A DNA stretch of 64,000 nt from positions 186,001 to 250,000 of the forward strand of contig JAQTTU010000002.1 in NCBI GenBank assembly GCA_028710605.1, in the 5' to 3' direction. A model generated the notes under the pieces. The model saw only the letters and a program-made list of their open reading frames with translations. It was not told the origin of the DNA and did no database searches. Shown here piece by piece: positions 43,414 through 59,163 of the stretch (position 1 is the first letter of the stretch; each line of letters opens with the position of its first letter). Made by a program: the position numbers and the translations under genes. The DNA comes from Sideroxydans sp. (lineage in GTDB: Bacteria > Pseudomonadota > Gammaproteobacteria > Burkholderiales > Gallionellaceae).

Positions 43414-44661
43414 TCATTGCCCGGCATTTTCGCCGGACAGGCTGCTCAAGGGCACGACCAGCCTTACCCGGCAACCATGCGAGTCGGCGCTTTCCCATTG
43501 CAGCGAAGCATTCAAAACCTGTGCGCGGGCGTGCATGCCTTTCATGCCGCGATGCTGTTTGATGTCGGATGCGGGGCAGCCTTTGCCGTCGTCTTCCACC
43601 ACCAGCACGAAACCATTATTTTCGATTTTCGCCAGCAGGGTAATGCGCTTGGCTCCGGCGTGGCGCAACACGTTGGTGACGGCCTCGCGCAGGATGCGGC
43701 TCAGGTGCAGCGCGACTTCGGAATTGGTTTGAATTTCCGAATTGATAAACGGAGACTGCCAGTCCATTTGCAGGCCGGAAGCGAGGATGCGCTGCTCGGC
43801 TTCGGCGCGCAAATCGACGATCAGGTCGCGCAGCAGAATGGTCGGGTGCGCCGAGCGCGAGACCACATCGCGCAAATCGTGCAATGCCGAGCGCGCCAGA
43901 TCGGCTTCGAGAAACAGGTTTGAACGCTGTGCCGAAATCGCCAGCCCCAACAGTTTTGCGCCCACATCGTCGTGCAGGTCCTGATAGATCCGCTCGCGTT
44001 CCGCCTTCTGCATGGCGATGGCTTTTTCCTGGATCAGCGCCTCGTTCTCGAATTGCAGTTGCAGCGAATGCAGAATAGTTTTCTGCGCGCTGAAGGCGGT
44101 GTAGGCAATCACCAGCAAATAGAAAAACAGCAGCATGCCCAACGTGCGGGCGTGCACGCCGAAACCTTCATCCAGCAAGGGATACATCGCCAGCCCGGAA
44201 CAGGCCAGACCGACCATCAGCGCGCGCTGCGAATGGCTGCCGTGAGTGGTCACCGCCCCCGCCGCCACGCCCAGATAGATCAGCAGCACCGCCAGATTCA
44301 ACTCCAACTGGCCGGGGACGAACAGCAAACCGGCAGCCCCCCAGGCCATGCCCGTGAACGCGATAAAAAACAAACCGTGCCGCCGCCATGACTTGAGCTC
44401 GGCCGCGTCCGGCACGCTGCCGGGAGGCAACCTGGAAAAACCGAAATGCATGTAAGCGGCATGCAGCGACGACACCGCCATCAGCGTCAGCCAAATGATA
44501 AGCCTGTCGCCGCGCAGCACATCGCCGAAACCGAGCACCATCAGCAACGGAATAACGATGGGCGAAACGACCCCCATGAACACATTGCGCCGCGCCAACT
44601 CGAACAAGGCCGCCTCGGTTCTGGCATCGCGCGCGGGGTTGAGCAAGTTGATTAGATTCAC
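43414..44661 (-). CDS. HPK7-type sensor histidine kinase, integral-membrane sensor
   Basis: A 415-residue kinase with six hydrophobic segments (about residues 27-192) and no large periplasmic domain. A HisKA_3 dimerisation region follows, with the phosphoacceptor histidine 230 in ERERIYQDLHDDVGAKLLGL, and then an HATPase domain (NVLRHAGAKR, VEDDGKGCP). No regulator is adjacent. The DHp/ATPase half is nearly the same as in the kinases at 49454-51256 and 57222-59120. It probably phosphorylates a NarL-type regulator, perhaps one encoded in this island. Confidence 0.92.
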   Translation of the reverse strand: MNLINLLNPARDARTEAALFELARRNVFMGVVSPIVIPLLMVLGFGDVLRGDRLIIWLTLMAVSSLHAAYMHFGFSRLPPGSVPDAAELKSWRRHGLFFIAFTGMAWGAAGLLFVPGQLELNLAVLLIYLGVAAGAVTTHGSHSQRALMVGLACSGLAMYPLLDEGFGVHARTLGMLLFFYLLVIAYTAFSAQKTILHSLQLQFENEALIQEKAIAMQKAERERIYQDLHDDVGAKLLGLAISAQRSNLFLEADLARSALHDLRDVVSRSAHPTILLRDLIVDLRAEAEQRILASGLQMDWQSPFINSEIQTNSEVALHLSRILREAVTNVLRHAGAKRITLLAKIENNGFVLVVEDDGKGCPASDIKQHRGMKGMHARAQVLNASLQWESADSHGCRVRLVVPLSSLSGENAGQ

Positions 44662-44723: not shown

Positions 44724-44748
44724 AACCGCCCGAACGAGTCGGGCGGTT
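44724..44748 (-). terminator. Rho-independent terminator of the lipoprotein gene
   Basis: A 10-base perfect stem (aaccgcccga / tcgggcggtt) with a 5-base loop. On the minus strand it is followed by TTTCGTTTTT. It lies 27 bases after the stop codon at 44776. Confidence 0.9.
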
Positions 44749-44775: not shown

Positions 44776-46836
44776 TTACGGCGTTGTAAAAATCTGCACT
44801 CCGCCAACAGCCATGAAGGTGTTATTCAGGAACTTGAGTGATGTCACCCCGACACCGGACAAGCCTGTCGAAGCATCCTGAGTCCAGTTCAGTCCATCCG
44901 TGGAAGTAAACACCTTTCCCGACGTACCTGCCGCGACAAAACTGCCATTGCCGTAGGCGACCATGTTTAAAGTATTGAAATAAACAGCGGATGCCGGTGT
45001 TGCTGCTGTCCAAGTGATGGCATCTGGAGATGTCCACACTCCTGTGCCTGCCGCGACATATAGATTATTGGCAAATACCACCGAGCCCAGATTAATGGCG
45101 TTCTGTGGTAGCACCGGGTAGCCGGGATACGTGATCTGTCCACGATCTGTCCACGTGACCGCATCCGGCGAGGTCAAAATGCGACTGCCAACGGCGACAT
45201 ATTGCGTACCGGACCAGATCACCTTGTTAAGCGTTCCAACAGCAGGAACGATACGAGTTGACCAGGTAATGCCGTCTGCTGAAGTCAGGATTCCACCGCC
45301 GCCATCTGTCAGGAAGAATTTCCCGTTCGCAAAATCGACACCGTTCTTGTTCTGGTAATTTCCGGCACTCAACCGCCCCGTCCAAAGCGCGCCGTCAGGC
45401 GAAGTGTAGGCCTGTCCATAGTTATCAACGCCGACAAACACGCCATTGCCGTATGCGACCTTGGTAAGAATGAGCGCTGCCGAAGCCGGTGTTGCTCCCG
45501 GATAAGTAGCGGCCAAACTGCCCCACGTAACTGCATCTGTCGAAGATGCAACTTTGTTTCCGACACCTACCGAAAGATATTGAGTTCCGCTCCAAGCCAC
45601 ATCCGACAGGTAACCTTGAAGCAGCGTGATACCGGTGACCGAATGTGCAGTCCAGTTGAGTGCAGCCGGAGCACCACCACCAGCCGCACTGGTTGTCGCA
45701 TTGACTTCAGCTGAACCCGCGCTTTCTCCCGCCGCATTGACTGCTGTCATTCTGTAGTAGTAGGTCGTCGCTGCAGTGAGTCCGGTATTCGGGAATGGCC
45801 CTGACGTGGGTTGCGCGATGACAGGCGTGATTTTGTTGGCGGCGATGATCTGCACGGGGGATGTGGTTGAACGGTAAATGTTGTACGCAGTAGCCCCCGT
45901 TACGTTGGTCCAGTTGATATTGATCTGGGTCGCGCTGCTGGCCGTCGCAGACACCCCTGTCGGTGCGGATGGAATAGTCGATCCCGCCGCCACCGCACTC
46001 GCATACAGCGCACCATAAGTGGCCGTCGGAATAGCGGGAGAAGACGGTGCGGAAGCGCCAGCCGCCATCACACTCGAAGCCCCGCTGGTCATCGCGAGCA
46101 GCGCCGCATCAAACGTTGCCTGACTGACCACCGAAGTCGGCGCGCTGGCCGGGTTCACCAAGCCGGTCGCCAAAGCCTGCGCCCTGTCCGCCAAGGTTGT
46201 TCCGCTTTGCCCGTTTGCCGCCATCGCCCACGCGGAAAGCAGCAGCGTGTTCGTATCGCCGGTGTGGTTTGTGGCCGGATCGAATGCCGGAACCGCAGAA
46301 GCCGGAACACCGAAAATCGTTCCGGCGACGCTCATCGCGGCAACCGCAGAAGCCGCCTGAATCGGGTGCGCCGCAGAGAACCCGCCCAAACGCGTTTGCA
46401 AATCCGTCACGGCGGTTTCGGTAACCAGCGTCACAGGCACACCCGTCGCTGCCGCCCCCGCACTCTGAATCAAACCGCGCAATGGCGTGCTTCCGGTTTC
46501 CGGCGCACCGGTCACCTCGTTGAAATAACTGCCCGTCACTTCCACGATCAGCGGATAAGTCACGCTGGCGGGGAATGTCACCGAAGCCACACCGCTGGCG
46601 TTGACCGTGCCGCCGGATACCAACGTGATCGGGTTGCCGCTGGCATCTTTGAGAACAACGGTTGCTCCGCTGTAATACGGGCCTTTGTAAGGCGTGACGC
46701 TGGCGGTTACGGTAGAAGCGCCGCCGCCCGTGGTCGTGCCGCCCCCCCCTCCGCATCCGGCGAGAATCAAAGTGGCAATGGCAGTAAGACCTATGCCCAG
46801 TTCAGTGGCTTTGCGTAAAGCGGGTTTGAGTAGCAT
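44776..46836 (-). CDS. Secreted lipoprotein with FnIII and BNR/propeller-like repeats
   Basis: A 686-residue lipoprotein (lipobox LAGC followed by a glycine run). It has a beta-rich N-terminal region (about 40-115), a helical Ala-rich part, one fibronectin type III domain (APTGVSATASSATQININWT, about 290-385), a linker ATTSAAGGG, and a C-terminal propeller made of repeats like GTQYVAVGSRILTSPDAVTW. It is probably exposed outside the cell or in the periplasm. The ATG at 46836 follows GGGAGCG. It is a paralogue of the gene at 47113-49161, sharing the leader, FnIII, linker and upstream region, but with a different C-terminal repeat type. No enzymatic site is recognised. Confidence 0.88.
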   Translation of the reverse strand: MLLKPALRKATELGIGLTAIATLILAGCGGGGGTTTGGGASTVTASVTPYKGPYYSGATVVLKDASGNPITLVSGGTVNASGVASVTFPASVTYPLIVEVTGSYFNEVTGAPETGSTPLRGLIQSAGAAATGVPVTLVTETAVTDLQTRLGGFSAAHPIQAASAVAAMSVAGTIFGVPASAVPAFDPATNHTGDTNTLLLSAWAMAANGQSGTTLADRAQALATGLVNPASAPTSVVSQATFDAALLAMTSGASSVMAAGASAPSSPAIPTATYGALYASAVAAGSTIPSAPTGVSATASSATQININWTNVTGATAYNIYRSTTSPVQIIAANKITPVIAQPTSGPFPNTGLTAATTYYYRMTAVNAAGESAGSAEVNATTSAAGGGAPAALNWTAHSVTGITLLQGYLSDVAWSGTQYLSVGVGNKVASSTDAVTWGSLAATYPGATPASAALILTKVAYGNGVFVGVDNYGQAYTSPDGALWTGRLSAGNYQNKNGVDFANGKFFLTDGGGGILTSADGITWSTRIVPAVGTLNKVIWSGTQYVAVGSRILTSPDAVTWTDRGQITYPGYPVLPQNAINLGSVVFANNLYVAAGTGVWTSPDAITWTAATPASAVYFNTLNMVAYGNGSFVAAGTSGKVFTSTDGLNWTQDASTGLSGVGVTSLKFLNNTFMAVGGVQIFTTP

Positions 46837-46924
46837 GGTGGCGCGCTCCCTGTGAAAGTTGGACAGCAAATAATTGATTCGGAAATTACAGGGTGCAGGC
46901 TAACCCATCGAATAGGCGATTCAT

Positions 46925-46945
46925 ATCCCGTGTTCAGGGGGGTAG
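46925..46945 (-). promoter_or_regulatory. Candidate operator, CCCCCCTGAACACGGGAT (site a)
   Basis: On the minus strand: ctacccccctgaacacggga. It ends 88 bases before the lipoprotein ATG at 46836. It is the same spacing and orientation as site b (49250-49270), and similar to site c (52454-52474). Confidence 0.6.
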
Positions 46946-47009
46946 GCTGACAGATGAATTGTGGTGGATTTGCTACTGGAAGGAGTGGATGGGGAGCTGG
47001 AAATAGGCT

Positions 47010-47030
47010 GTAGATCGCCTATTGACGGGC
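47010..47030 (-). repeat. Repeat C copy (reverse)
   Basis: gtagatcgcctattgacggg plus c: the reverse of the 15881 copy. It lies upstream of site a, within a block also duplicated at 49324. Confidence 0.8.
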
Positions 47031-47059
47031 TTCTTCACGAGGTGTCTGGGTTGATAATG

Positions 47060-47092
47060 AAAAAGCCACCCGCAAAGCGCGGGCGGCTTTTT
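47060..47092 (-). terminator. Terminator (probably bidirectional)
   Basis: aaaaagccacccgc / gcgggcggcttttt hairpin with A-tract and T-tract, about 20 bases after the stop of the NHL-repeat lipoprotein gene. Confidence 0.88.
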
Positions 47093-47112
47093 ACGGAACT
47101 CCGAAAAGCGAA

Positions 47113-49161
47113 TTACTGAATCTTGCGGATCTCGTTATTGGTGGTATCCGCCACATACAAGTTTGTGCCGTCAGAGGTAATCCCGTTCGGATTCCAGAAC
47201 GAAGCTGCTGTACCTACTCCGTCCGTGGCCTGCGCAAAAGCATTTCCCGCAACAGTCGTGACGCCCCCCGAAGAGATCACCACCTTGCGCACATTGTGGC
47301 TACCCGCGTTCTGGCTGGTGACATACAGGTTGGTGCCGTCGGTGGTAATGCCCATCGGAGTGTTGAACGATGCAGCGGTTCCCGTGCCGTCGGTGTAAGC
47401 CTGCGTTCCCGAACCGGCCAAGGTCGTCACGGTAGCCGAAGCGATCACAATCTTCCGAATCTTCTGGCTATTGGTATCGGCCACATAAAGGTTGGTGCCG
47501 TCGGTCACAACGCCTCTGGGAAAGTTGAAGGTTGCCGCACTTCCAATGCCGTCTGCCGACCCGGCATTTTGCCAGCCCGCTCCGGCCAATGTCGTCACCT
47601 GCCCCGTGGCAATAACCACCTTGCGTATGGCGTTGTTGCCTTTGTCCGCCACGTACAGATTGCTTCCGTCAGTCGTAATCCCGGAAGGCGTATTAAACAG
47701 AGCCGCAGTACCTGTACCTTCCGCATAACCCATTGCCGCACCAACCAATGGCGTTACAGTTCCCGTGGCAATATTGATTTTGGAGATGCCGGAAGTGTTG
47801 TTGACGATATCGACATAAGTAAAATAGGTTGCGTACAAGTTAGTGCCGTCCGTCGTGATGCCATATGCGCCTGGCAGCGAAGCCAGCGTCGTCACCGCAC
47901 CTGTGGCAATCACGACTTTGTAGATGCTGCCGCTGTTTGCCACATACAGATTCGTGCCATCGGTGGTAACGCCCGTTGGCCCCATGATCGGAGATGAGGT
48001 CGGTGTTGCCGTTGCGGGACCAACCAAGGTGGAGACTGTGGTGGAAAGCACCAGCGGTGTGCCTTGTATTGTGCCGCCCATCAATCCGGCAACGGCTCCG
48101 CCGCCCGCCGCACTGGTTGTGGCACTCACCTCAGCCGAAGCCACGCTTGCTCCCACCCCATTCAACGCCACCACCTTGTAGTAATAGGTCGTGGCAGCGC
48201 TCAGCGCATAAGAATCGTTCAGCGAAGTAGCCACAGTCGAAGGCCCCACCAAGGCGGAACCGCTGGTGACATTGGTCATCGAAGCAACGGGCAAGTTCGC
48301 AGTGGTTGCACGATAGACGTAATAGGCTGCTGCCCCCGACACCGCAGACCAGCTCAAATTGATTTGAGACGAACTTACTGCCGTTGCAGACACACCCGTT
48401 GGCGCTGCCGGAACCGCTGTTGCCGCCGTCACATTAAATGTCCCCACCGCAACCACACCCGTGCCGTCGAAATTGGACAGCGTGATCGCCGTATTGCCAA
48501 TCACCACTCCATGCGGAACCGTGACTGTGATCGCCGTTGCTGTTGCCGACGAAACCGTGGCCACGATGGTGCCGAACTTGACCACTGGCGCGGGTGTGAA
48601 ATTGCCCAGGTTGGTGCCGCTGATGGTGACGCTCGTCCCCTCCGGCCCCGTTGCCGGAGTAAAGCCGCTGACGGCAGGCGTTGCTCCGGCAGGTGCAGCC
48701 CCGTACACCCCGGTCAAATCCGGCAAGTTGCCGGTGAACGAAGCATCGGCCATGAAATCGACCGCGCCCGTCGTGCCAAATTCCACATAGATCATCGGCA
48801 ATGTCGTGTCCTTGCAAATCGAATTGACCGTCTGCGCTGCACCGTTGTAAGTCAAGCTGCCGCCGCTGGCCAACACAAAAGTCGCCGCGCCGCCGTCCGA
48901 AGTGAACACGCCTGTATTGAATGTGCCGGTGTTGCCGTTGTAAGTCCTGGCGTAGGTCGCCATATCTCCGGCGGTCGGTACGGCAACTGTACCAGCGGTG
49001 TAATGCGCGGTAGTGCAACTGAGCGAACCGCCGCCTGATCCGCCTCCAGTGCCGGTGCTGGTACTGCCACCACCCCCGCATCCGGCGAGAATCAAAGTGG
49101 CAATAGCGCTGAGGGCTATGCCGAGTTTTGTGGCTTTGCGTAAAGCGTTTTTGAGTAGCAT
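47113..49161 (-). CDS. Secreted lipoprotein with IPT/TIG, FnIII and NHL repeats
   Basis: A 682-residue lipoprotein (lipobox LAGC, then Gly/Ser/Thr-rich linker). In order: a beta-rich domain, an IPT/TIG domain (about 160-245, VSGFTPATGPEGTSVTISGT), one FnIII domain (about 255-345), the ATTSAAGGG linker, and an NHL-type propeller of at least six repeats with VTTDGTNLYVAD cores. Leader and linker match the paralogue at 44776-46836 closely. The ATG at 49161 has GGGAGCG upstream. NHL propellers usually bind ligands or surfaces; the target is unknown. Confidence 0.88.
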   Translation of the reverse strand: MLLKNALRKATKLGIALSAIATLILAGCGGGGSTSTGTGGGSGGGSLSCTTAHYTAGTVAVPTAGDMATYARTYNGNTGTFNTGVFTSDGGAATFVLASGGSLTYNGAAQTVNSICKDTTLPMIYVEFGTTGAVDFMADASFTGNLPDLTGVYGAAPAGATPAVSGFTPATGPEGTSVTISGTNLGNFTPAPVVKFGTIVATVSSATATAITVTVPHGVVIGNTAITLSNFDGTGVVAVGTFNVTAATAVPAAPTGVSATAVSSSQINLSWSAVSGAAAYYVYRATTANLPVASMTNVTSGSALVGPSTVATSLNDSYALSAATTYYYKVVALNGVGASVASAEVSATTSAAGGGAVAGLMGGTIQGTPLVLSTTVSTLVGPATATPTSSPIMGPTGVTTDGTNLYVANSGSIYKVVIATGAVTTLASLPGAYGITTDGTNLYATYFTYVDIVNNTSGISKINIATGTVTPLVGAAMGYAEGTGTAALFNTPSGITTDGSNLYVADKGNNAIRKVVIATGQVTTLAGAGWQNAGSADGIGSAATFNFPRGVVTDGTNLYVADTNSQKIRKIVIASATVTTLAGSGTQAYTDGTGTAASFNTPMGITTDGTNLYVTSQNAGSHNVRKVVISSGGVTTVAGNAFAQATDGVGTAASFWNPNGITSDGTNLYVADTTNNEIRKIQ

Positions 49162-49249
49162 GGCGGAGCGCTCCCTGTAAAAATTGGACAGCAAATTGTT
49201 GATTCGGAAATTACAGGGCACAGGCTATCGCATCGAATATGCGATTCAT

Positions 49250-49270
49250 ATCCCGCGTTCACGGGGGGTG
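49250..49270 (-). promoter_or_regulatory. Candidate operator (site b)
   Basis: Minus strand: caccccccgtgaacgcggga. It ends 88 bases before the ATG at 49161, the same distance as site a. The following 90 bases are also alike in both copies, including a possible -10 TGTAAT. Confidence 0.6.
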
Positions 49271-49323
49271 AGATGTGTGGTGTATTTGCTACTGGATAGG
49301 TCGGCCAGAAAGCGCAGGGGGCT

Positions 49324-49344
49324 GTAGATCGCCTATTGGCGGGC
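49324..49344 (-). repeat. Repeat C copy (reverse)
   Basis: gtagatcgcctattggcggg plus c. A partial repeat-B relative (ttgtcgggttgccccgcagg) follows at 49366-49419. Confidence 0.75.
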
Positions 49345-49453
49345 TTGTACGTGAATGCTGCCGACTTGTCGGGTTGCCCCGCAGGGGTTCTTGCACCCCT
49401 GGGTGAAACCCGGCCTTCGAATTCATCAACCATGTTATTGAACTCAGAACTCT

Positions 49454-51256
49454 TCAACCGAAATACTGAGTTTGTTCCACAGAAGAATTTTCTTGTTCGG
49501 CCACTATCTTCGACGTGTCGAAATCCGGTGTGATGTGGTGTACGGAAACTTCGATGGCGACCATGCAGCCGTTGGGCGAACGCGGCTGCCAGATGATGCT
49601 GCCGCCCAGTGCCGCAGCGCGGGCGCGCAGGCTGCTCATGCCGCGATTCGGTTTCGCTCCCGCTTCGGGCAGTCCCACCCCGTCGTCCTTGATGGTCAGC
49701 ATCAATTTTTCTTCGTTCCACGCAATATCCACCGTGATGCGGGTGGCGCTGGCGTGGCGCAGCACATTGGTGATCGTCTCGCGCAGGATACGGCTCAGGT
49801 TGAGCGCTGCGGCGGCGCTGACCGGCAGCGGGAATTCGATGTCGGAAATGCGCCAATCCAGCTCCAGGCCGGCCGCATGGACGCGCTGCTGTGTTTCCAC
49901 GCGCCAGTCGGCCACCAGGTCGTCCAACGGGGTGGCGGGATGCGCGGAGCGCGATACCACGTCGCGCAAGTCGCGCAGTGCGGAACGCGCCAAGTCGGCT
50001 TCGCGCGGCTGATTGGCGCGCTGTGCGGAAATCGCCAGCCCCAGCAGTTTTGCGCCGAGGTCGTCGTGCAGATCGCGGAAAATGCGTTCGCGTTCGCCCG
50101 CTTCGGCATGCTTGATTTCCAAAGCCCGCCGCTCTTTGAAGCTGGCTGAAAGCGAAGTGTGCGCAGCGGCGATACGCTGCTCAAGTTTCCGGTTCATTTG
50201 CCTGGATTTAATCAGCAGAAAAACGATGGTGGCGACGATGGTCAACAGCAGGGTGACGGCGATGGCGCGATACAGCCAGGTCAAATCGTGCTGCGGATCT
50301 GGATCGTACAAAAAACCGTCCAGCGAAAAGTTTCGCGGCAGCATGCCGATGTCGGAATATGTGTCGGCAATATGCCGCCAGCGGCTGGCGTTCATATAAC
50401 CTACTTCGATCAGTTCCGGGTGCATCAGCGCGATGGTCTCTTTTGCTTCAAACAAAAAGTAGTCGCGCGAATGCCGCTGCGAATAACGGGCGAGGATCAA
50501 ATCCGCCATTTGCTCCGGGTGCTCCACGGCATATTTCCAGCCGCGCAAACTGGCTTCGCGGAATGCGCGCACGCGCTCCGGGTGCTCCTTCAGTTGCTGT
50601 TCGGTGGTAAACAGATTGTCGCCGTAAAAATCGATCCCGGCGGAACGCGGCGTGTAGATGTAATGGGCAAATCTCGCGCGTCTCAGGTAGTACGGCTGAT
50701 TGGTGGCATAGCCCGCAATCGCATCAACCTTGCCGTCGATCAAATCCTGCGGATCGTAGCTGTGCTCAACCTGCGTGATCTGGCTGAGCGGAATTCCCTC
50801 TTTCTGGAGATAGGCCAGCAACTCGTCCGCCTGCGGCTCAAGCATCACGCGCTTGCCGACAATATCGTGAATATCCTGCGTGGTTTTGAGCTGCCGCGCG
50901 ATCAGCACGTAAGGCGAATGCTGGAATATCACGGCCAGCGCCACCACGGGCTGACCGGCTTTGCGCTGCAACAACAAGGCGCTGGTGCCCACCCCGAACT
51001 CGGCACGCCCATCCAGCACATTCTTGACCGGATCATCGCCGGGCAACGCTTCCACAATCTTTACATCCAGACCCGCCTCGCGGTAATAGCCCCGCTCTTT
51101 CGCCGCGTAGTAACCGGCGAATTGAAAAGCATGCGTCCACTTCAATTGCAGCGTAACGCTATCCAGTTCGCTGGAGGTTTCTTGCGCCAGCGCAGGTAGT
51201 GCCAGCAGCGAAGTGGCAAGCAGCAAAGATAAACAATAGCGGGAAATGGTATGCAT
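49454..51256 (-). CDS. Sensor kinase with NMT1/THI5-like periplasmic binding domain and HPK7 core
   Basis: A 600-residue protein: signal peptide (1-24), a solute-binding domain of the NMT1/SsuA/THI5 type (about 32-320: LQLKWTHAFQFAGYYAAKERGY, then DGRAEFGVGTSALLL), one membrane helix (329-349), a coiled coil, the HisKA_3 histidine 397 (RIFRDLHDDLGAKLLGL) and an HATPase domain. The NMT1 fold normally binds thiamine precursors, sulfonates or nitrate. Here it is fused directly to a kinase, suggesting small-molecule sensing. The ATG at 51256 gives a clean signal peptide. No regulator is adjacent. Confidence 0.9.
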   Translation of the reverse strand: MHTISRYCLSLLLATSLLALPALAQETSSELDSVTLQLKWTHAFQFAGYYAAKERGYYREAGLDVKIVEALPGDDPVKNVLDGRAEFGVGTSALLLQRKAGQPVVALAVIFQHSPYVLIARQLKTTQDIHDIVGKRVMLEPQADELLAYLQKEGIPLSQITQVEHSYDPQDLIDGKVDAIAGYATNQPYYLRRARFAHYIYTPRSAGIDFYGDNLFTTEQQLKEHPERVRAFREASLRGWKYAVEHPEQMADLILARYSQRHSRDYFLFEAKETIALMHPELIEVGYMNASRWRHIADTYSDIGMLPRNFSLDGFLYDPDPQHDLTWLYRAIAVTLLLTIVATIVFLLIKSRQMNRKLEQRIAAAHTSLSASFKERRALEIKHAEAGERERIFRDLHDDLGAKLLGLAISAQRANQPREADLARSALRDLRDVVSRSAHPATPLDDLVADWRVETQQRVHAAGLELDWRISDIEFPLPVSAAAALNLSRILRETITNVLRHASATRITVDIAWNEEKLMLTIKDDGVGLPEAGAKPNRGMSSLRARAAALGGSIIWQPRSPNGCMVAIEVSVHHITPDFDTSKIVAEQENSSVEQTQYFG

Positions 51257-51368
51257 ACTGAAACGCGCGCCTAATACAAATACCGACAATGTTGAGGAGT
51301 CATAAGCATATCCCATTACCGGAGGAGACTGGCTTTTGCCTCCAAGCAGAACAAGCCGTTGTTATACG

Positions 51369-51405
51369 AAAAAAAACCGCCCGCAACCTGAATTGGCTGG
51401 GGCGG
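51369..51405 (-). terminator. Terminator after the lipoprotein gene
   Basis: On the minus strand CCGCCC...GGGCGG closes a stem, followed by eight T residues. It lies about 55 bases after the stop at 51459. Confidence 0.8.
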
Positions 51406-51458
51406 ATTGAGGGGTTTGCAAAAGAAAAAATGCTGTTGCTGCTTCCCGCGAAACCGGG

Positions 51459-52361
51459 TTACTTGGCAGAAATCTGGAATGCGAGACGCTCCGCAATCGC
51501 CTTGGCCGCTTCTTCAAACTTGGGCGACAAGGCTTTCCAGTATTCGAGGTTCTTGTGGCTTTCGCCGCTGGGCACGCTGATCTCGTCCGGGTTCACGGAA
51601 AGCGACAGCAGCAGTTTGCCGTTGCCGCCCAGCCAGCCTTCGCGCTTGCCGTAGCAGCGCAAAGTCAGGTCGCGCACGCGCATAACTTTGCGGTCATTCA
51701 CCACGTTGACTTGCCAAGCCAGCACCAGCGGCGCGCCAGTGGCATCCTGAATGGCGGCAGCAAAATCATCGGACGTAGCACCGGAGAATATGCCCGCGCT
51801 GCGATATTTGAAGCCCGCCACGGGCACGTTGTAGTAGCCCAGGTACAGATCGGGGTTAAACATCTTGCCCTTGATGAACTGCGTGTCCTTGGTCAGGCCT
51901 TTCTCGCCTTCGGATTTTGCGAACGCGGGCAATGCCTGCACGGCTTTGTTATCCATCATATCCAGCCCGCTTGCTTGCAGCGCGTTGTTCAGAATCTTGG
52001 CAATATCGTCGCCCATTTTTTTCGCGTCGGCTTCGGAAAGATGGTCTTCCACCGGCTCGCGCGAGGCGAAGTCCGTACCGCCCCCCGCTCCCATCATGGT
52101 GAATGCGCCGGCCAGCGCTGCACTCGCCAATTTTTTGCCGGTATGGCCTTCGCCGCTCAACAGGGTAAGACGTTCCAGATGTACTCCCTCGCTCACGTTC
52201 ATGCCGCTGACGGCCAGTTTTTTGCCCTTGATGGCGGCGGTATTGCCGAGGTCGCCCGCCACATTCAGCGCCACACTGCTTTTGGGGGCCGAGGTTGCGC
52301 ACGCGGTTAACACTAGCGCTGCCAGCAGCACAGAGACGGTCTTGGTGAAATGCAATTGCAT
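51459..52361 (-). CDS. Lipoprotein of unknown function
   Basis: A 300-residue protein with a lipoprotein signal (LVLTACATS, cysteine 21). The rest is an unrecognised globular region with a conserved-looking LTLLSGEGHTGKKLASAALAGA and WQVNVVNDRKVMRVRDLTLRC. GGGAG lies ahead of the ATG. It is divergent from the kinase gene at 52531. The 169-base gap between them holds candidate operator site c. No link to the FnIII lipoproteins beyond the shared upstream motif. Confidence 0.8.
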   Translation of the reverse strand: MQLHFTKTVSVLLAALVLTACATSAPKSSVALNVAGDLGNTAAIKGKKLAVSGMNVSEGVHLERLTLLSGEGHTGKKLASAALAGAFTMMGAGGGTDFASREPVEDHLSEADAKKMGDDIAKILNNALQASGLDMMDNKAVQALPAFAKSEGEKGLTKDTQFIKGKMFNPDLYLGYYNVPVAGFKYRSAGIFSGATSDDFAAAIQDATGAPLVLAWQVNVVNDRKVMRVRDLTLRCYGKREGWLGGNGKLLLSLSVNPDEISVPSGESHKNLEYWKALSPKFEEAAKAIAERLAFQISAK

Positions 52362-52453
52362 AATTTTCTCCCTGAAATATATTGATGACGACGAAACAGA
52401 ACGGACGCGGTATTACTTGGATGCAAGATTATGAGATACGCATAACTCAAACA

Positions 52454-52474
52454 ATCCCGCGTTCAGGGGGGTAG
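52454..52474. promoter_or_regulatory. Candidate operator (site c), between divergent genes
   Basis: Minus strand: ctacccccctgaacgcggga. It ends 92 bases before the lipoprotein ATG at 52361 and is 56 bases before the kinase ATG at 52531. It could control both. Confidence 0.6.
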
Positions 52475-52530
52475 CTTTAGTTTTGGCATTTGCTAAAGTC
52501 GCAGCGTCGAAATCCATTGAAAATCCAGAG

Positions 52531-54654
52531 ATGCACCAGCTGTACAAACGACCATCCTTTCTGTTGCAACTGCTGTGGCTGGGCTGTTTGGCAGCGTGCG
52601 CGACCACGGCGTGGCTCGCCCTGCAAGAGCCGTGGCTGGGCGTAAAGATGGAAGTGGACGGCGACAAGCTGCGTGCCACTGTGGATTATTCGCAACAGAT
52701 TCCGCCCGGAGCAGAAGTGCACCGTGTGATTTCTGCAACAGGAAACTCTATCGATTTGCAGCCGCTGGATTTGACCGAGAATCTGGATTCATTCGCGAGC
52801 TATATTGAGAAAGACAAATTCTTTGCCAAGCAATCTGCATTGAATGCGATGTTGTACTTGGGCAAGGTAAGTCTTGTCTGGGCGGACAAAAACAACTTAG
52901 AGCACATCACAACGATCACCCCCCGCCCTCGCCCGTTAGCCAGTTTGTCGGCCATGTTCTGGTTCACCTTGTTCGTGGTGAGTACGGCCTTCATGATTTC
53001 CTGCTGGGTGTATCTCATGAGCCCGAAAGATTGGGGATCGCGCATGTTTGCGCTGACCGGGCTGATGTTGCTGTTTGGGGGGATTACCGGGGCATTGATT
53101 AGCGAAAGAGCCTTGGCCTTGGATGGTGCATGGTTCGGCAAGCTGGATGATTTCAATGCGCTGTCGGGACAAGCGATGGGGGGCGCAATTCTGGCCATGT
53201 TTTTAAGTTTCCCGCGCCAATTGGTTGCACCGCGCACCTTGTTGTGGATTCCGGCCATCTTCTTTCCATTGTGGCTGGCAAATACCCTCCACTTATTGCC
53301 CGACTCACGAGAACCATTGCTGGCCATTTCCAGCCAGATGTTTCTGGCATTGATCGTCGCGGTGATGCAGTGGCGGCACACGCGCGGACAGCCGATAGAG
53401 CGCGCCGCATTGCGCTGGTTTGTCCTGTCTGTATTGCTCGGCAGCTCGCTGTTCATGGTCACCAATATCATCCCGCTCATTTTCGACAAGCCCGCGTTGT
53501 TGCCCATGGGCTATGCCATCGGTTTCTTCCTCATCATGTACGTCGGCATCGCGCTGGGTCTGCGCCGCTACCGCTTGTTCGATATTGACGAATGGGCGTA
53601 CCGCGTGTTTTTGTGGGTGGCGGGCGCGACCTCGGTGATTGCGCTGGATGTGTTGCTGATCTTTACGGGAGTGACCGAAGGCGCGTCGCTGGGCATCAGT
53701 TTGCTGTTGTGCGGCTGGTTATATTTCCCGTTCCGCCAATGGCTGTGGGAACGCATCGTGGGCGCGAAAGCCCCCAAATTTGACAACCTGTTACCCGAGC
53801 TTTCCGCGATTGCTTTCACTGCGTCCGGCAATGAGCAGCAGGCGCGCTGGGAAGCTCTGCTGCGGCGCATTTACGATCCGTTGGAATTGAAACAAAGTGA
53901 ACAGGACGAAGCGGGAGGTGTGCGCGAAGAAGGGCTGGGATTAGCCGTTACGGCTTGCGGCGATTTGCCCGCATACATGCTGCGTTATGCCGGGCGAGGA
54001 GCAAAATTATTTTCCACGCGCGATGCGCAATTCGCCGCGTCGTTGAACCAGTTGCTGCAACAGATCATGAGCGGGCGCACCAGTTACGAAAAAGGCGTGA
54101 CGCAAGAGCGGCTGCGCCTCGGGCGCGATTTGCACGACAACATCGGCGCGCGACTGCTAAAACTCATCCACCATTTGCGCGGCACACCGGATGCCGACGT
54201 GGCGCGCGACGCGATGAAAGATTTGCGCACCGCCATCGCCGCCATGGACTCGCGTCCCGTGCCGTTAAGCAACGCGCTGGCCGACTGGCGCGCCGAGGCC
54301 GGGTCGCGCTGCGAAGCGGCGGATTGCCGTTTGCGCTGGCAGCAAAGCGAAGCGTTGCCGGGCATCGAATTGCCGCCGCGCAGGAAAGCCATGCTGGAAT
54401 CGGTGCTGCGCGAGCTCATCACCAATGCGCTGAAACACGCCGCGCCGTCCGCTATCAAAGTTGAAATTTCCGTGAACGGAATGCAGCTAAAAGCCAGTGT
54501 GGAAAATGACGGCAACATCGCCGATCCGCTCACTTGGCGCGAAGGCTACGGCCTGCGCAACATTCGCGGAAGGCTGGAAGAATTGGGCGGCGGATTGAGC
54601 ATCGACTCCGCCGAAAACAAAGTGCAAATGACGATAGAAACGCCACTGACATGA
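52531..54654 (+). CDS. Membrane sensor histidine kinase, HPK7 family (divergent member)
   Basis: A 707-residue kinase with an N-terminal membrane helix (about 13-32), a short periplasmic domain (to about 145), about seven further helices (150-410), and a soluble GAF-like region (430-510). HisKA_3 follows with histidine 535 (RLRLGRDLHDNIGARLLKL), then HATPase (ELITNALKHA; last G-box GYGLRNIRGRLEELGGG). Its kinase core is more distant from the other three in this island. The stop overlaps the following regulator start (ATGA), so the two form a two-component pair. Start at ATG 52531; a TTG at 52483 is an alternative. Confidence 0.92.
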   Translation: MHQLYKRPSFLLQLLWLGCLAACATTAWLALQEPWLGVKMEVDGDKLRATVDYSQQIPPGAEVHRVISATGNSIDLQPLDLTENLDSFASYIEKDKFFAKQSALNAMLYLGKVSLVWADKNNLEHITTITPRPRPLASLSAMFWFTLFVVSTAFMISCWVYLMSPKDWGSRMFALTGLMLLFGGITGALISERALALDGAWFGKLDDFNALSGQAMGGAILAMFLSFPRQLVAPRTLLWIPAIFFPLWLANTLHLLPDSREPLLAISSQMFLALIVAVMQWRHTRGQPIERAALRWFVLSVLLGSSLFMVTNIIPLIFDKPALLPMGYAIGFFLIMYVGIALGLRRYRLFDIDEWAYRVFLWVAGATSVIALDVLLIFTGVTEGASLGISLLLCGWLYFPFRQWLWERIVGAKAPKFDNLLPELSAIAFTASGNEQQARWEALLRRIYDPLELKQSEQDEAGGVREEGLGLAVTACGDLPAYMLRYAGRGAKLFSTRDAQFAASLNQLLQQIMSGRTSYEKGVTQERLRLGRDLHDNIGARLLKLIHHLRGTPDADVARDAMKDLRTAIAAMDSRPVPLSNALADWRAEAGSRCEAADCRLRWQQSEALPGIELPPRRKAMLESVLRELITNALKHAAPSAIKVEISVNGMQLKASVENDGNIADPLTWREGYGLRNIRGRLEELGGGLSIDSAENKVQMTIETPLT

Positions 54655-55301
54655 AAACTGTTTTGCTGTTGGAAGACCTGCCCGAGTCGCAACTACTGCT
54701 GTGCGAAGTCATCCAGACCGCATTCCCCGGCGCGCGGGTGCGCAGCGAATCCGAAGTGGCCGGGGCGATGAAGATCATCAAGCAGTTCCAGTTCGACCTG
54801 GCGCTGATTGACCTTTCGCTGCCGGACGGCGACGGCACGAAAGTGATCGAAGCGATGGCGGCGCGCTTTCCCAAATGCACCATCGTGGTCGCCACCATCT
54901 TTGACGATGACGAACATCTGTTCCCCGCACTGCGTGCCGGTGCGCAGGGCTATTTGTTGAAGGACCAGACGACGGAACAATTGGTCAAACAACTGCGCGG
55001 CATCGTCGAAGGCCACCCGCCGCTGTCGCCTTCAGTCGCGCGCCGATTGCTCGAACATTTCCGAGAAGAAAAACCGGCGGCCACTACAACCGAAGTCATC
55101 GCGGACGAAGCCGACCTCACCCCGCGCGAACGCGAAGTGCTGGTGCAACTCACGCGCGGCATCAGCATCGCCGACATCGGCGGCGTGATGAACATCTCGC
55201 GCCACACCGTGAACGATCACGTGAAGAATATTTACCGCAAGCTGAACATCTCATCGCGTGCCGAAGCGACGTTGCGGGCGAAGGGCATGGGGCTGGTGTA
55301 A
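54651..55301 (+). CDS. NarL/LuxR-type response regulator paired with the kinase at 52531
   Basis: A 216-residue regulator. Receiver: LLLEDLPESQ, phosphoacceptor LALIDLSLPDG, VVATIFDDDEH, YLLKDQTTEQ. LuxR helix-turn-helix: LTPREREVLVQLTRGISIAD, then SRHTVNDHVKNIYRKLN. All key receiver residues are intact. It overlaps the kinase by four bases. It is paralogous to the regulator at 56446-57075; both share the GAQGYLLKDQ segment and the MGLV end. Confidence 0.95.
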   Translation: MKTVLLLEDLPESQLLLCEVIQTAFPGARVRSESEVAGAMKIIKQFQFDLALIDLSLPDGDGTKVIEAMAARFPKCTIVVATIFDDDEHLFPALRAGAQGYLLKDQTTEQLVKQLRGIVEGHPPLSPSVARRLLEHFREEKPAATTTEVIADEADLTPREREVLVQLTRGISIADIGGVMNISRHTVNDHVKNIYRKLNISSRAEATLRAKGMGLV

Positions 55302-55321
55302 TCCGAAAGAAAACAGTTCCT

Positions 55322-55415
55322 CACCCTTCAAGGGGGAGGTTAGGTGGGGGATGGGGTGGAATCTCCGAGCATTTTCCCCATCCCCTCCCCAACCCTCCCC
55401 TTGAAGGGGCGGGAG
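55322..55415. repeat. Repeat D, inverted pair
   Basis: caccccttcaaggggg-type arms at 55322-55357 and 55374-55415 are inverted copies. A repeat-C second module (cttgatggagatgggcgtat) follows at 55429. Confidence 0.8.
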
Positions 55416-55468
55416 TGAGGTGGATGCGCTTGATGGAGATGGGCGTATCTACTGGTTTTGCGGCATTT

Positions 55469-56173
55469 TCATTGCGGCAACTTGCCGCGCAGCACGTCCC
55501 GATCAAACCACCATTTATCGCCGACCATCGCGTTCAATACCGAGGCTAAACGCGGCAGAAACACTTGCGGATCGCGCAACTCCAGTTGATCCAGCCAACT
55601 GTCCAACGCGTCCTGATCCCGCACATTGCCGTGGCGCTTTGCCACCATCGCAATCAGATTGTCGGCGAGAAAAGAAAGGTTTTCATGCTGCTCGTCATCA
55701 GCGCGCAGATCGACCACATAGCGCGCGGTGATCGCCGCCAGTGCGCCGTCATCCGCCGCATCCGGGGTTTCTTCCGCCAGATGGATCAGCATTGCCAGCG
55801 TCACTTCCGCCTCGACCGGGAACGTCACCGCCAGCCAGATACCCATGCACAGCGCCGCCATCGAATCCGGCTGTCCGGCTTGAAACAGCACGTCGCACGC
55901 CTCCACCGCATCCTGCCAGGATTCCTGTTGCATCGAGATATGAAACGCCGCGCGCGCGATTTCCCACGCTTCATTTTTGCGCTCCAGCGCATTCAGAATT
56001 TCGGCGATGTCCAGCTGCAGCCGTGCGCGCTGCAAAGGTTCGGCGCTTTCAAGCGCACTGAGTTGCTTGAGTTTTTCGGCAAGCTGTTTTTTCAGAGCAA
56101 CTTGCTCTTCTGCTGTCGGGCCGTCTTTCGCGTCTTTGATTAACGGACCGACGTTGAGAATATTTTTTGTCAT
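55469..56173 (-). CDS. Hypothetical cytosolic helical protein
   Basis: A 234-residue protein with a coiled-coil start (EEQVALKKQLAEKLKQLSAL), then repeated helical pairs of TPR-like character (LQLDIAEILNALERKNEAWEI and AVEACDVLFQAGQPDSMAAL). No signal peptide or catalytic motif. It is flanked by repeat-D elements on both sides and convergent with the regulator gene upstream. Not recognised; a protein-interaction role is plausible. Confidence 0.75.
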   Translation of the reverse strand: MTKNILNVGPLIKDAKDGPTAEEQVALKKQLAEKLKQLSALESAEPLQRARLQLDIAEILNALERKNEAWEIARAAFHISMQQESWQDAVEACDVLFQAGQPDSMAALCMGIWLAVTFPVEAEVTLAMLIHLAEETPDAADDGALAAITARYVVDLRADDEQHENLSFLADNLIAMVAKRHGNVRDQDALDSWLDQLELRDPQVFLPRLASVLNAMVGDKWWFDRDVLRGKLPQ

Positions 56174-56240
56174 GCGAATGCTAAAGCTGGAATATTGAAT
56201 GTCGGCAGTTTAACCCGGAAAATCCATTGAGCCGGACCTG

Positions 56241-56311
56241 CTCCCTCCCCTTCAAGGGGAGGGTTGGGGAGGGGATGGGGTTTGATATGACTCAAGAACC
56301 CATCCCCATCC
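56241..56311. repeat. Repeat D copy
   Basis: ctccctccccttcaagggga hairpin followed by inverted gggatgggg / ccccatccc. It lies upstream of the hypothetical gene. Confidence 0.78.
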
Positions 56312-56352
56312 TAGTGCAGTGCATCGTTCTTGACAGCACTTATGTGCAGCCC

Positions 56353-56403
56353 TTGTAGGTCGGGCTTTAGCCCGACATGTCGGGTTGAAACCCGACCTAC
56401 AAA
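56353..56403. repeat. Repeat B (double hairpin)
   Basis: A complete copy, nearly identical to 10768-10815. It lies 45 bases after the regulator stop at 56446 and may end its transcript. Confidence 0.85.
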
Positions 56404-56445
56404 ACCATTCTGCTAGATGGCATAAATTACAGATAGCGTGCAACA

Positions 56446-57075
56446 CTACACCAGCCCCATCTGCTGCGCCGACAGCGCCGCTTCCGCCCGCGATGAAACA
56501 TTGAGTTTGCGGTAGATGTCTTTCACGTAACCGGAAACGGTGTGCGGGCTGATGGCGAGCATGCGCGCGGTTTCCGGCAGCGTCAGCCCTTTGGAGATGC
56601 AGCGCAGGACTTCGTTTTCGCGGTCGGTAAGTTGCTGCTGGTAAGGTTGCGGGCTGGGCTTGAAATAGCCCAGCATCTTGCGCGCCACGGCGGGCGACAG
56701 CGGCGGTCGGCCTTGCGAGATGCCTTCGAGCAATTCGATGATTTGCTCCAGCGGTTGATCCTTCAGCAGATAGCCTTGTGCGCCGGCGCGCAGGGCGGGG
56801 AACAGATGCTGGTCATCGTCGAAAATGCTGGCCACCACGCATACCGTTTTGGGCGAAGTGCGGTTGAGCTGGGCGATGAGTTCCACACCGCTGCCGTCCG
56901 GCAGGCCGAGGTCGATCAACGCCAATTCCGGTGCGGGGTTGACGCTGAGCCAAGCGCGCGCTTCGGCGAGGCTGCCGGTGCAGCTAAACGTGATGCCGGG
57001 GAAGGCGGCAATCAACGCCTGGCTCAGCCAGATTTGCGAGTCGGCAACGTCGTCGAGAATGAGGGCGGTTTTCAT
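56446..57075 (-). CDS. NarL/LuxR-type response regulator
   Basis: A 209-residue regulator with an intact receiver (LILDDVADSQ, LALIDLGLPDG, CVVASIFDDDQH, YLLKDQPLEQ) and a LuxR-type DNA-binding domain (LTDRENEVLRCISKGLTLPE, then SPHTVSGYVKDIYRKLN). It lies downstream of the kinase at 57222 on the same strand, 146 bases away, so the two are likely cognate. That gap contains a repeat-E palindrome, and the kinase 3' end carries site e. Confidence 0.95.
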   Translation of the reverse strand: MKTALILDDVADSQIWLSQALIAAFPGITFSCTGSLAEARAWLSVNPAPELALIDLGLPDGSGVELIAQLNRTSPKTVCVVASIFDDDQHLFPALRAGAQGYLLKDQPLEQIIELLEGISQGRPPLSPAVARKMLGYFKPSPQPYQQQLTDRENEVLRCISKGLTLPETARMLAISPHTVSGYVKDIYRKLNVSSRAEAALSAQQMGLV

Positions 57076-57105
57076 TGGGTGAAATATTCTTGGTTAGTGA
57101 AGGTT

Positions 57106-57167
57106 TTGTAGGTGCGAATTCATTCGCACATTGCACATCGCTTGTGCGAATAAATTCGTACCTACAT
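57106..57167. repeat. Repeat E, long copy
   Basis: Outer arms tttgtaggtgcgaatt and aaattcgtacctaca with an inner inverted pair. It lies 30 bases upstream of the regulator ATG. Confidence 0.8.
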
Positions 57168-57221
57168 ACACCTTAATTGAGTTATTCATTGTCAATGATA
57201 ATAACAATTCGCCGCGCAAAG

Positions 57222-59120
57222 TCAGCCCCGCGTTTCGGGGGGTAGGCTTTGCAGCGGGACGCTCAGCCTGACTTTGCAGCCGTGCGGTTCGATACTCGTC
57301 CATTCCAGCGTTCCATTGAGCGTCGCCGCGCGCGAACGCATGCTGGTCATGCCCCGGTGCATTTTGAGGTTTTCGGCCGGGCAGCCTTTGCCGTCGTCCG
57401 CGACTTCGATCACAAATTGATCCTGCCAGATTTGCGTGACGATGGAAATGCGTTTTGCTTCCGCGTGGCGCAGCACGTTGGTCACCGATTCGCGCAGGAT
57501 GCGGCTCAGGTTGAGCGCGGCTTCGGCGCTGATCATCAAATCGGTTTCTATGGTCGGAAAACTCCACGCCAGTATCAGCCCGGCCGCATTCACGCGCTGT
57601 CCGGTCTCAACGCGCAGATCGGCGATCAGGTCGCCCAGCATGGTTTCGTTTTGCGCCGAGCGCGACACCACGTCGCGCAAATCCTGCAACGCGGAGCGCG
57701 CCAGATCGGCATCCTGCACCTTGTTCGCGCGCTGGGCGGAAATCGCCAGCCCCAGCAATTTCGCGCCCACATCGTCGTGCAGATCGCGGTAGATGCGCTC
57801 GCGTTCGCCCGCCGCCGCGCGGCTGATTTCCAGCACGCGCAACTCTTCAAAACTGGCCGCCAGCGCTTTCTGCGCGGCATCGACGCGCTGTTCCAGCGTG
57901 ATGTTGAGTTGCTCGGATTCGCGCAGCGCTTCGATAAAGCGGCCGGTGAGATACCAGCCGATGTAGAGAATCAGCAGCGGTGCGGAGTACGGCAGGATGT
58001 GGTTGATCAGCGGCGACCAGTGCGGGATGAAATTCGATTGCAGCAGCCAGTCGTGGATGCCGGTCACCAGCACCGCCGCGATGCTGATGCCCAGCCAGAT
58101 AATGTGGCGCTCGCGCCGCGCTTCGCCCAGCAATTCCCACACCACGATAAAGCCGATGGCCAGGCTGCCCACCTGCCAGATCACCGTGGTCTGGCTGATG
58201 AAGCGCAAGTCGCTCAGGGCGTAGGCCAGCGTGGAAAGCGTCGCCCAGATGAGAAAGCCTTTTTCCAAACGCGGACGCACTATTCGGGCGGCGCGATGCG
58301 AGAAGATAGCCAGCGTCACCGTCCACCACGCGATGCAGCTGTAGATGATCCAGTCCCAAATTCTGGCCGGTACCGGAATATCGCGGATCACGTTGTTGCT
58401 GGTGTACAGCGTCCAGATCAGCGCCATCAGCGCGTACCACAAATACATGTTGTCCCCGCGCCGCCGCAGCCAGATGCCGAAGATGAAAACGGAAGCGAAC
58501 AAAGTGCCGAGAATCAGCACGCCGTTGAGATCGTTCTGCACCAGCACCTGCGTTTCATACAGCGGGCGCAGGGCGGATTCCGGGCCGATGGAAACCGGAT
58601 CGAGACGGCCATAGCCGGGGTAGGATTTGAGGCGGATGTGAATGACGTTGCCGCTGTTTTTCCAATGCCCGGGCGAGATGACGAAGAACAGCGGACGGTT
58701 CCAGTTGCGCGCCATCGGCTCTTTGAACTGACCGCCGTCGCCCAGATAGTAATCGTTGAAAAACACCGCGCAATTCATGTTGAGCCGGGGAATATAAATG
58801 CCCCAGTTCTCCTTGGGCTTGCCCGACAGCTCAATATCGAAGCGGTACCAGCCGTTATCGCCGTCCGCATAGCGCGCGGCAGTCCAGACATCGGGCAGCG
58901 TAACGTTTTTCCAGTCGTTGTAGGTCGGCGGCTGCACCGTTTCGGTTAGCTGAAACGAAGCACTTTTCAACTGGATGAAAGCGGTAGTCTGATCCGCCGC
59001 AACGGCGGATGGTGCGATAAGCAAAGCCAACGCGACCAGCGTTGAGCGGCGCAGCCATTGGCGGAAAAATTCAGTCAGCACCGGAATCGATCTTCTAAAG
59101 TAATAAGTTGCCGCGAGCAT
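57222..59120 (-). CDS. 7TMR-DISM-type sensor histidine kinase, HPK7 core
   Basis: A 632-residue protein: N-terminal signal/anchor (about 25-42), a periplasmic beta-sandwich domain of 7TMR-DISM type (50-190: GWYRFDIELSGKPKENWGIY), seven membrane helices (about 200-395), a coiled coil, the HisKA_3 histidine 448 (RIYRDLHDDVGAKLLGL) and an HATPase domain. It is paired with the regulator at 56446. The kinase core closely matches those at 43414 and 49454. Its last codons overlap candidate operator site e, and site d lies 22 bases before its ATG. Confidence 0.92.
   Translation of the reverse strand: MLAATYYFRRSIPVLTEFFRQWLRRSTLVALALLIAPSAVAADQTTAFIQLKSASFQLTETVQPPTYNDWKNVTLPDVWTAARYADGDNGWYRFDIELSGKPKENWGIYIPRLNMNCAVFFNDYYLGDGGQFKEPMARNWNRPLFFVISPGHWKNSGNVIHIRLKSYPGYGRLDPVSIGPESALRPLYETQVLVQNDLNGVLILGTLFASVFIFGIWLRRRGDNMYLWYALMALIWTLYTSNNVIRDIPVPARIWDWIIYSCIAWWTVTLAIFSHRAARIVRPRLEKGFLIWATLSTLAYALSDLRFISQTTVIWQVGSLAIGFIVVWELLGEARRERHIIWLGISIAAVLVTGIHDWLLQSNFIPHWSPLINHILPYSAPLLILYIGWYLTGRFIEALRESEQLNITLEQRVDAAQKALAASFEELRVLEISRAAAGERERIYRDLHDDVGAKLLGLAISAQRANKVQDADLARSALQDLRDVVSRSAQNETMLGDLIADLRVETGQRVNAAGLILAWSFPTIETDLMISAEAALNLSRILRESVTNVLRHAEAKRISIVTQIWQDQFVIEVADDGKGCPAENLKMHRGMTSMRSRAATLNGTLEWTSIEPHGCKVRLSVPLQSLPPETRG
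57224..57245 (-). promoter_or_regulatory. Candidate operator (site e)
   Basis: Minus strand: ctaccccccgaaacgcgggg. It overlaps the last codons of the kinase gene and lies 148 bases before the regulator ATG at 57075, in the same orientation as sites a-c. Confidence 0.45.
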
Positions 59121-59142
59121 AACTTAACGAAAGCGAAAATAC

Positions 59143-59163
59143 CTCCCCCGATTCACGGGGGAC
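59143..59163 (-). promoter_or_regulatory. Candidate operator (site d)
   Basis: Minus strand: gtcccccgtgaatcggggga. It is a perfect CCCCC-N7-GGGGG dyad with the same GTGAA core, 22 bases before the kinase ATG at 59120. Confidence 0.5.

Follow-up and report, generated by a model that had tools for sequence, protein, structure and literature searches.

What are the five closely similar inverted repeats that punctuate an island of signalling and lipoprotein genes in a Sideroxydans genome, and which proteins would read them? A preliminary description of the window (the whole 64 kb stretch of DNA analysed here) had proposed that they are binding sites for one of two NarL-type regulators. The regulon idea now finds strong support in a fixed spacing to the predicted -10 element, in exported targets, in strict cores that within the family occur only in genomes carrying the system, and in recurrence at orthologues. 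On these grounds we consider it highly likely that the five sites serve as operators for a two-component regulon that controls itself. Through this motif, a membrane sensor and its partner regulator very probably switch on the genes of secreted lipoproteins as well as their own, and the same switch very probably recurs where iron-oxidising and more distantly related bacteria carry related sensor genes.

Five dyads in a signalling and lipoprotein island

The genes of the island and one associated hairpin are as follows.

43414..44661, minus strand: HK_415, histidine kinase with membrane input, no detected operator, own promoter-like site
44724..44748, minus strand: terminator-like hairpin between LP1 and HK_415 (terminator scan)
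44776..46836, minus strand: LP1, lipobox lipoprotein with fn3 domain
47113..49161, minus strand: LP2, lipobox lipoprotein with TIG, fn3 and NHL repeats
49454..51316, minus strand: HK_NMT1, histidine kinase with NMT1/THI5 input domain, no detected operator
51459..52361, minus strand: LP3, lipobox lipoprotein of 300 aa without Pfam or NCBIfam family
52531..54654, plus strand: HK_plus, histidine kinase with TM1, a predicted periplasmic PDZ-like domain, about 8 TM and HisKA_3/HATPase
54651..55301, plus strand: RR_plus, NarL-type response regulator proposed to read class A sites
56446..57075, minus strand: RR2, NarL-type response regulator proposed to read class B sites
57222..59120, minus strand: HK_7TMR, 7TMR-DISM histidine kinase

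Both regulators match Response_reg and GerE (LuxR-type HTH) above the Pfam cut-off, and the closest solved structures to the system's regulators are VraR and NarL. No NCBIfam equivalog reaches its cut-off against RR_plus among the best 25 of 85 families (MadR, 111.7 of 300 bits; NarL, 111.0 of 250). HisKA_3 and HATPase_c lie above cut-off in HK_7TMR and HK_NMT1, the latter combining an NMT1/THI5-like binding-protein input domain with a transmitter 59% identical to that of HK_7TMR. Relatives of HK_plus match HATPase_c in 32 of 33 cases and HisKA_3 in 30 of 33 (E up to 0.1), the HisKA_3 match of the window's own protein being below cut-off.

The dyads, in which class A denotes one arm of exactly three bases (GGGAT, for example) and class B at least four bases in either arm, are distributed thus.

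46925..46943, minus strand: operator 1, class A, ACCCCCCTGAACACGGGAT, 5' of lipoprotein LP1
49250..49269, minus strand: operator 2, class A, ACCCCCCGTGAACGCGGGAT, 5' of LP2
52454..52472, minus strand: operator 3, class A, ACCCCCCTGAACGCGGGAT, in the intergenic region of LP3 and the divergently transcribed HK_plus
57226..57243, minus strand: operator 4, class B, ACCCCCCGAAACGCGGGG, 5' of RR2 and within the final codons of the 7TMR kinase gene
59144..59162, minus strand: operator 5, class B, TCCCCCGTGAATCGGGGGA, 5' of the 7TMR kinase

All five minus-strand copies lie where the preliminary description had placed them, and its remark that the motif had not been noticed elsewhere in the window is borne out by a generalised core, CCC-N2-RWWY-N2-GGG (a 14-bp dyad), which matches these five places and no others in the 64 kb. 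A stricter GWWC form of the core has three matches (mean 0.2 and maximum 3 in 200 shuffles) and a gapped form four, against 0.04 expected. Allowing up to three mismatches to the 16-mer CCCCCNTGAACNCGGG gave 11 matches in the window against a shuffle mean of 7.7, a count reached by 17 of 100 shuffles and so not above chance.

Distances of 88, 88 and 92 bases from sites 1–3 to the lipoprotein ATGs are correct, as is the earlier caution that the first two copies are duplicates: they precede two paralogous lipoproteins. Site 4 does lie upstream of RR2, at 148 bases, and it is also coding, falling at the end of the 7TMR kinase gene (stop codon at 57222-57224). The 148-base gap holds a palindromic insert that the orthologous region of another genome (G017) lacks; this insert, GTAGGTACGAATTTATTCGCAC ... 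GTGCGAATGAATTCGCACCTAC, occupies about 57090-57170 of the window, between the -10 and the ATG of RR2. Site 5 likewise stands upstream of the sensor kinase, the 22 bases reported being counted to an ATG at 59120; since this codon falls within the predicted -10, translation of HK_7TMR probably begins at a GTG further on, near 59081, as judged by eye. The proposed tie to four kinases finds no support, as only two of the four carry sites: the genes at 43414-44661 and 49454-51316 have no dyad. HK_415 sits behind the hairpin at 44748-44724 and has a promoter-like site of its own, both coming from scanning that gave totals no higher than those of shuffled sequence, and HK_NMT1 sits behind a hairpin with a T-run that was seen by eye and is not among the terminator-scan matches.

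Across the 3.36 Mb genome, the strict form ACCCCCN{6,8}CGGGAT has five matches, namely sites 1–3 and two on contig C14, and its reversed control none. All five are intergenic and ahead of exported proteins, and occurrence at random or intragenic places at similar frequency, which would speak against a regulon, is not seen. One C14 site precedes an exported WD40 protein, with a divergent operon for LPP20- and MltC-type lipoproteins; the other precedes an exported protein with WD40 and FGE-sulfatase domains. A scan with CCCNNGWWCNNGGGRT returned the same five sites and one intragenic match (six in all; two in the reversed control). The giant exported WD40 proteins and the LPP20/MltC operon lie at L210 6500-15544 (G000:C14), on a contig other than that of the island, and each of the two WD40 proteins also seems, on inspection, to include a caspase-like stretch that does not figure in the Pfam families shown.

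Conservation and two proposed operator classes

An orthologue of LP3 (E of 0.001 or better) is present in only 1 of 60 relatives, and the LP3 family alignment has little conservation; upstream conservation was therefore examined through the kinase and the regulators. The family set comprised 150 genomes, and the 24 counted as carrying the system had a match to HK_plus at E 1e-40 or to the regulators at E 1e-55. The counts that follow are subject to two reservations, in that both the search patterns and the rules defining the classes were adjusted in the light of known examples and that related genomes are not independent; L155 and L248 were excluded from alignments. The search pattern yielded 111 matches in 61 family genomes, 30 of these with the strict core (GAAC or GTTC before NCGGGAT). 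Strict-core sites occur in 14 of the 24 genomes with the system against 0 of 126 without (Fisher, 1.1e-13), the strictest form thus being missing from 10 of the 24, and a looser core rule captures 18 of 24 system genomes together with 9 of the 126 others. As judged by a simple ad hoc rule for signal peptides, 21 of the 30 strict sites precede lipobox lipoproteins, 7 precede other signal-peptide proteins and 2, one of them at a contig end, are followed by no qualifying ORF; among 600 random positions drawn from these loci, 28 precede lipoproteins and 93 precede other exported proteins. A one-mismatch pattern matched 72 of 100 genomes with many chance matches, the recurrent CGCCCATGAACGCGGG among them, and was for that reason used solely for locating clusters.

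Conservation upstream of orthologues, the lack of which would also count against a regulon, is found on both sides of the island. Among 17 HK_plus orthologues of at least 48% identity, counting the window's own, 16 show a dyad upstream in the divergent region, one of these dyads being degenerate; in the exception, L114, the kinase gene follows another kinase gene. RR2 orthologues of at least 74% identity (own included) have it directly 5' of the regulator in 8 of 8 cases, mostly overlapping the end of the upstream gene. Relatives of RR2 at 63% (one) and 52-54% (three) lack an upstream dyad, two of them having one behind the gene; this comparison covered 12 of 26 regulator matches. Site 5 is conserved in two relatives. 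In G017 (L082 2023), ATCCCATGAACGTGGGAT stands before a third lipoprotein; here A and T pair at the inner arm positions, so that dyad symmetry is kept differently.

Of 24 kinase loci from outside the family, 16 carry a dyad in the 300 nt upstream and 8 do not, the background being 1.2% per 300 nt (15 elsewhere in 372,571 nt). The loci include Rhodoferax, Ottowia, Comamonadaceae, Sulfitobacter, Sagittula and Zhongshania, and are 24 of 43, after exclusion of 18 from Gallionellaceae or close relatives and a partial Bacillota match (L166). The corresponding binomial value of 1e-25 overstates independence, because the pattern was chosen post hoc and four loci are from Zhongshania.

In most of the linked NarL-type regulators the recognition helix carries a common signature that ends in (I/L/V)Y-x-KL, and the class of the nearest dyad follows the residue at helix position 2. 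With D at this position the nearest dyad is class A for 25 regulators and class B for one; with G, S or Q it is class A for 4 and class B for 12 (42 distinct regulators; Fisher, 1.9e-6; duplicates and five regulators without a dyad within 3.2 kb excluded). The lone D regulator with a class B dyad is the window's own RR_plus, where the nearest dyad is operator 4, that of RR2. Because the outer bases of the dyad covary with the recognition helix, we infer two related regulators, one for sites 1–3 and one for sites 4 and 5: most likely, RR_plus would read the class A sites 1–3 and RR2 the class B sites 4 and 5. The earlier proposal of NarL-type regulators as the binding proteins stands in so far as covariation predicts them to be the likely readers, and falls in assigning all five sites to a single one, since the sites are of two classes. 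A single regulator reading all five is a possibility to which we give limited credence: the common core and the placing of RR_plus and RR2 in one clade by helix signature are consistent with it, whereas the tracking of helix types by operator classes (D versus G, S or Q) and the class B assignment of the site upstream of RR2 in 7 of 8 orthologues point to two.

The regulators are physically linked to the sites, hence their association alone is no proof of binding. A different transcription factor, encoded elsewhere and perhaps a global regulator with the two-component genes among its targets, might instead use the dyads as operators; the association with the linked regulators would then reflect linkage, and two of the sites in this genome do lie on a different contig. 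We regard such a factor as quite unlikely, given the absence of strict sites from the 126 sampled family genomes without the system, the covariation of outer operator bases with the recognition helix of the linked regulator, and the way the dyad follows the kinase and regulator family into other proteobacteria.

Predicted promoter geometry and look-alike elements

Two regulators, each reading its own class of operator, remain the preferred reading, and the predicted promoters are arranged around the dyads as follows.

46897..46902, minus strand: predicted -10 TAGCCT of LP1, 24 nt after the GGG of operator 1
49222..49227, minus strand: predicted -10 of LP2
52426..52431, minus strand: predicted -10 TAATCT of LP3
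52494..52499, plus strand: predicted -10 TAAAGT of the divergent kinase HK_plus
57198..57203, minus strand: predicted -10 TATTAT of RR2
59116..59121, minus strand: predicted -10 TATGCT of HK_7TMR, holding the ATG at 59120

Among 34 hand-picked lipoprotein-side sites (window site 2 included), xAxxxT stands 24 nt after the GGG in 27, with the full TAxxxT in 11; at other offsets the same element is found in 11 sites at 25 nt and in 5 at the next best. On the kinase side, TAxxxT lies 24-25 nt from the dyad core in 21 of 27 regions (12 at 24 nt, 9 at 25 nt), these loci having been hand-picked because a dyad had already been seen there. For 12 further hand-picked sites, comprising those of regulators and 7TMR kinases and other class B sites, TAxxxT occurs at 23, 24 and 25 nt in 5, 3 and 3 cases, respectively. 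From the fixed spacing to the -10, the dyad would cover about -53 to -35 of both promoters, and the equal spacing on either side suggests a symmetric two-way activator site centred near -43.5. A TTG-like -35 would adjoin the dyad on the lipoprotein side. A layout fitting a class II activator, with a dyad near -40 at a fixed distance from a -10-like hexamer, is seen at 27 of 34 and 21 of 27 predicted promoters. A consensus promoter scan gave three sites against 6.3 in shuffles, none of them for LP1–LP3 or operators 1–3, and placed a sigma-70-like promoter at operator 4, its totals being no higher than those of the shuffles.

The same geometry bears on whether the dyads could act as RNA hairpins, either terminators or leader structures, rather than as protein-binding DNA. 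They are GC-rich inverted repeats, site 5 is terminator-like in a simple scan (whose total of 18 equals that of its shuffles), and site 4 lies at a gene end. Yet, standing upstream of the predicted -10 at a fixed spacing, the dyads would be absent from the downstream transcript; moreover, sites 1–3 are not on the terminator-like list and the pairing of inner bases is not kept between species (CTGAACGC versus GCGTTCGC). Together these observations make a role as RNA very unlikely. That the dyads are dispersed REP-like DNA found by chance in the island is scarcely credible, since the similar GC-rich palindromic repeats of this genome (seven copies of CCCCCGCGAAGCGGG, at least three of CCCCCTTGAAGGGGGG) are different elements and have been set aside as a source of motif matches, while the dyads face genes at fixed positions, are conserved across genera and, in place of many scattered copies without gene polarity, comprise five strict sites each before an exported gene, by which this reading is already largely refuted.

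Both repeats mimic the motif and are unrelated to it. Genome-wide, CCCCCN{1,3}GAAN{1,3}CGGG has 12 matches, of which five are the sites themselves and the other seven belong to a single dispersed repeat of another kind; the seven copies of CCCCCGCGAAGCGGG lie in a dispersed palindromic repeat on contigs C3, C8, C17, C22, C23, C24 and C30 (L001-L004, L010-L012), and the copies of CCCCCTTGAAGGGGGG lie in another repeat.

A predicted self-regulating circuit and its relatives

We postulate that the phosphorylated NarL-type regulators bind the dyad as dimers near -43.5, adjoining the -35, and that the bound dimers would activate transcription as class II activators, the one dyad between LP3 and HK_plus serving two divergent promoters. 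The PDZ-like domain of HK_plus probably detects a ligand in the periplasm, RR_plus being the regulator that this kinase would feed; RR2 probably receives its input from the three kinases whose transmitters are closely related. The predicted outputs are surface or periplasmic lipoproteins and the sensors themselves, which would amount to positive feedback.

Two-component regulons with NarL-type regulators are an already known kind. ComA of the ComP-ComA system, part of ComQXPA quorum sensing, is a NarL-type regulator, like the partner regulator here, and the dyad operator presumably differs from the ComA box. With NarX/NarL, UhpB/UhpA and other HisKA_3/NarL-type systems the present one has its kinase and regulator superfamilies in common; the input domains of NarX/NarL and UhpB/UhpA differ from those here, no listed NCBIfam equivalog reaches its cut-off, and the dyad is, we assume, unlike the NarL heptamer. 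ComP of Bacillus, in the predicted model given in PMC9620489, is laid out as TM1, an extracytoplasmic PDZ domain, many membrane helices and HisKA/HATPase. HK_plus would have the same layout, its predicted PDZ-like domain falling between TM1 and the multi-helix membrane region; the ComP-ComA system belongs to Bacillus, whereas the present one is found in Proteobacteria and has lipoprotein targets. Pfam searches of selected neighbouring ORFs list neither a comQ isoprenyl transferase nor a comX pre-peptide among their families. QseE/QseF with the lipoprotein QseG, and similar systems, likewise tie a sensor kinase genetically to an envelope lipoprotein, but QseG is reported to be an accessory of its kinase, whereas the lipoproteins here are predicted outputs that differ between species.

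More speculatively, and in our judgement improbably, a ComP-like PDZ kinase might read a periplasmic peptide and switch on itself and fast-evolving surface lipoproteins through the two-way dimer site. It is similarly improbable that this peptide would be the C-terminal tail of an exported protein or a secreted pheromone, the whole then forming a closed circuit for surface remodelling or cell–cell signalling. To our knowledge, closed circuits of such a sort come only from Gram-positives.

Text searches of the literature with the motif strings returned no paper on this motif, a CRISPR survey that matched them being judged a chance match. Among papers on Gallionellaceae or Sideroxydans, on lipoproteins with two-component systems and on PDZ kinases, we recognised nothing as this regulon, and a ComP-like PDZ kinase combined, in Proteobacteria, with lipoprotein targets and a symmetric two-way operator did not come up in the literature searched. 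For a two-component family of iron-oxidiser relatives, most of them uncultured, and of cultured Beta-, Alpha- and Gammaproteobacteria, the analysis gives a predicted operator, the regulators likely to read it and a list of targets, and it connects ComP-like PDZ kinases with control of surface lipoproteins. The two-way promoter and the helix–operator covariation make specificity testable in named strains such as Ottowia thiooxydans.

Two further observations concern individual proteins of the island. LP1 has six weak relatives among viral contigs, all aligned from query residue 298 onward, in the fn3 region. A 234-aa protein without Pfam family, encoded at 55469-56173 of the window, also adjoins two-component genes in L079, L080 and L085.
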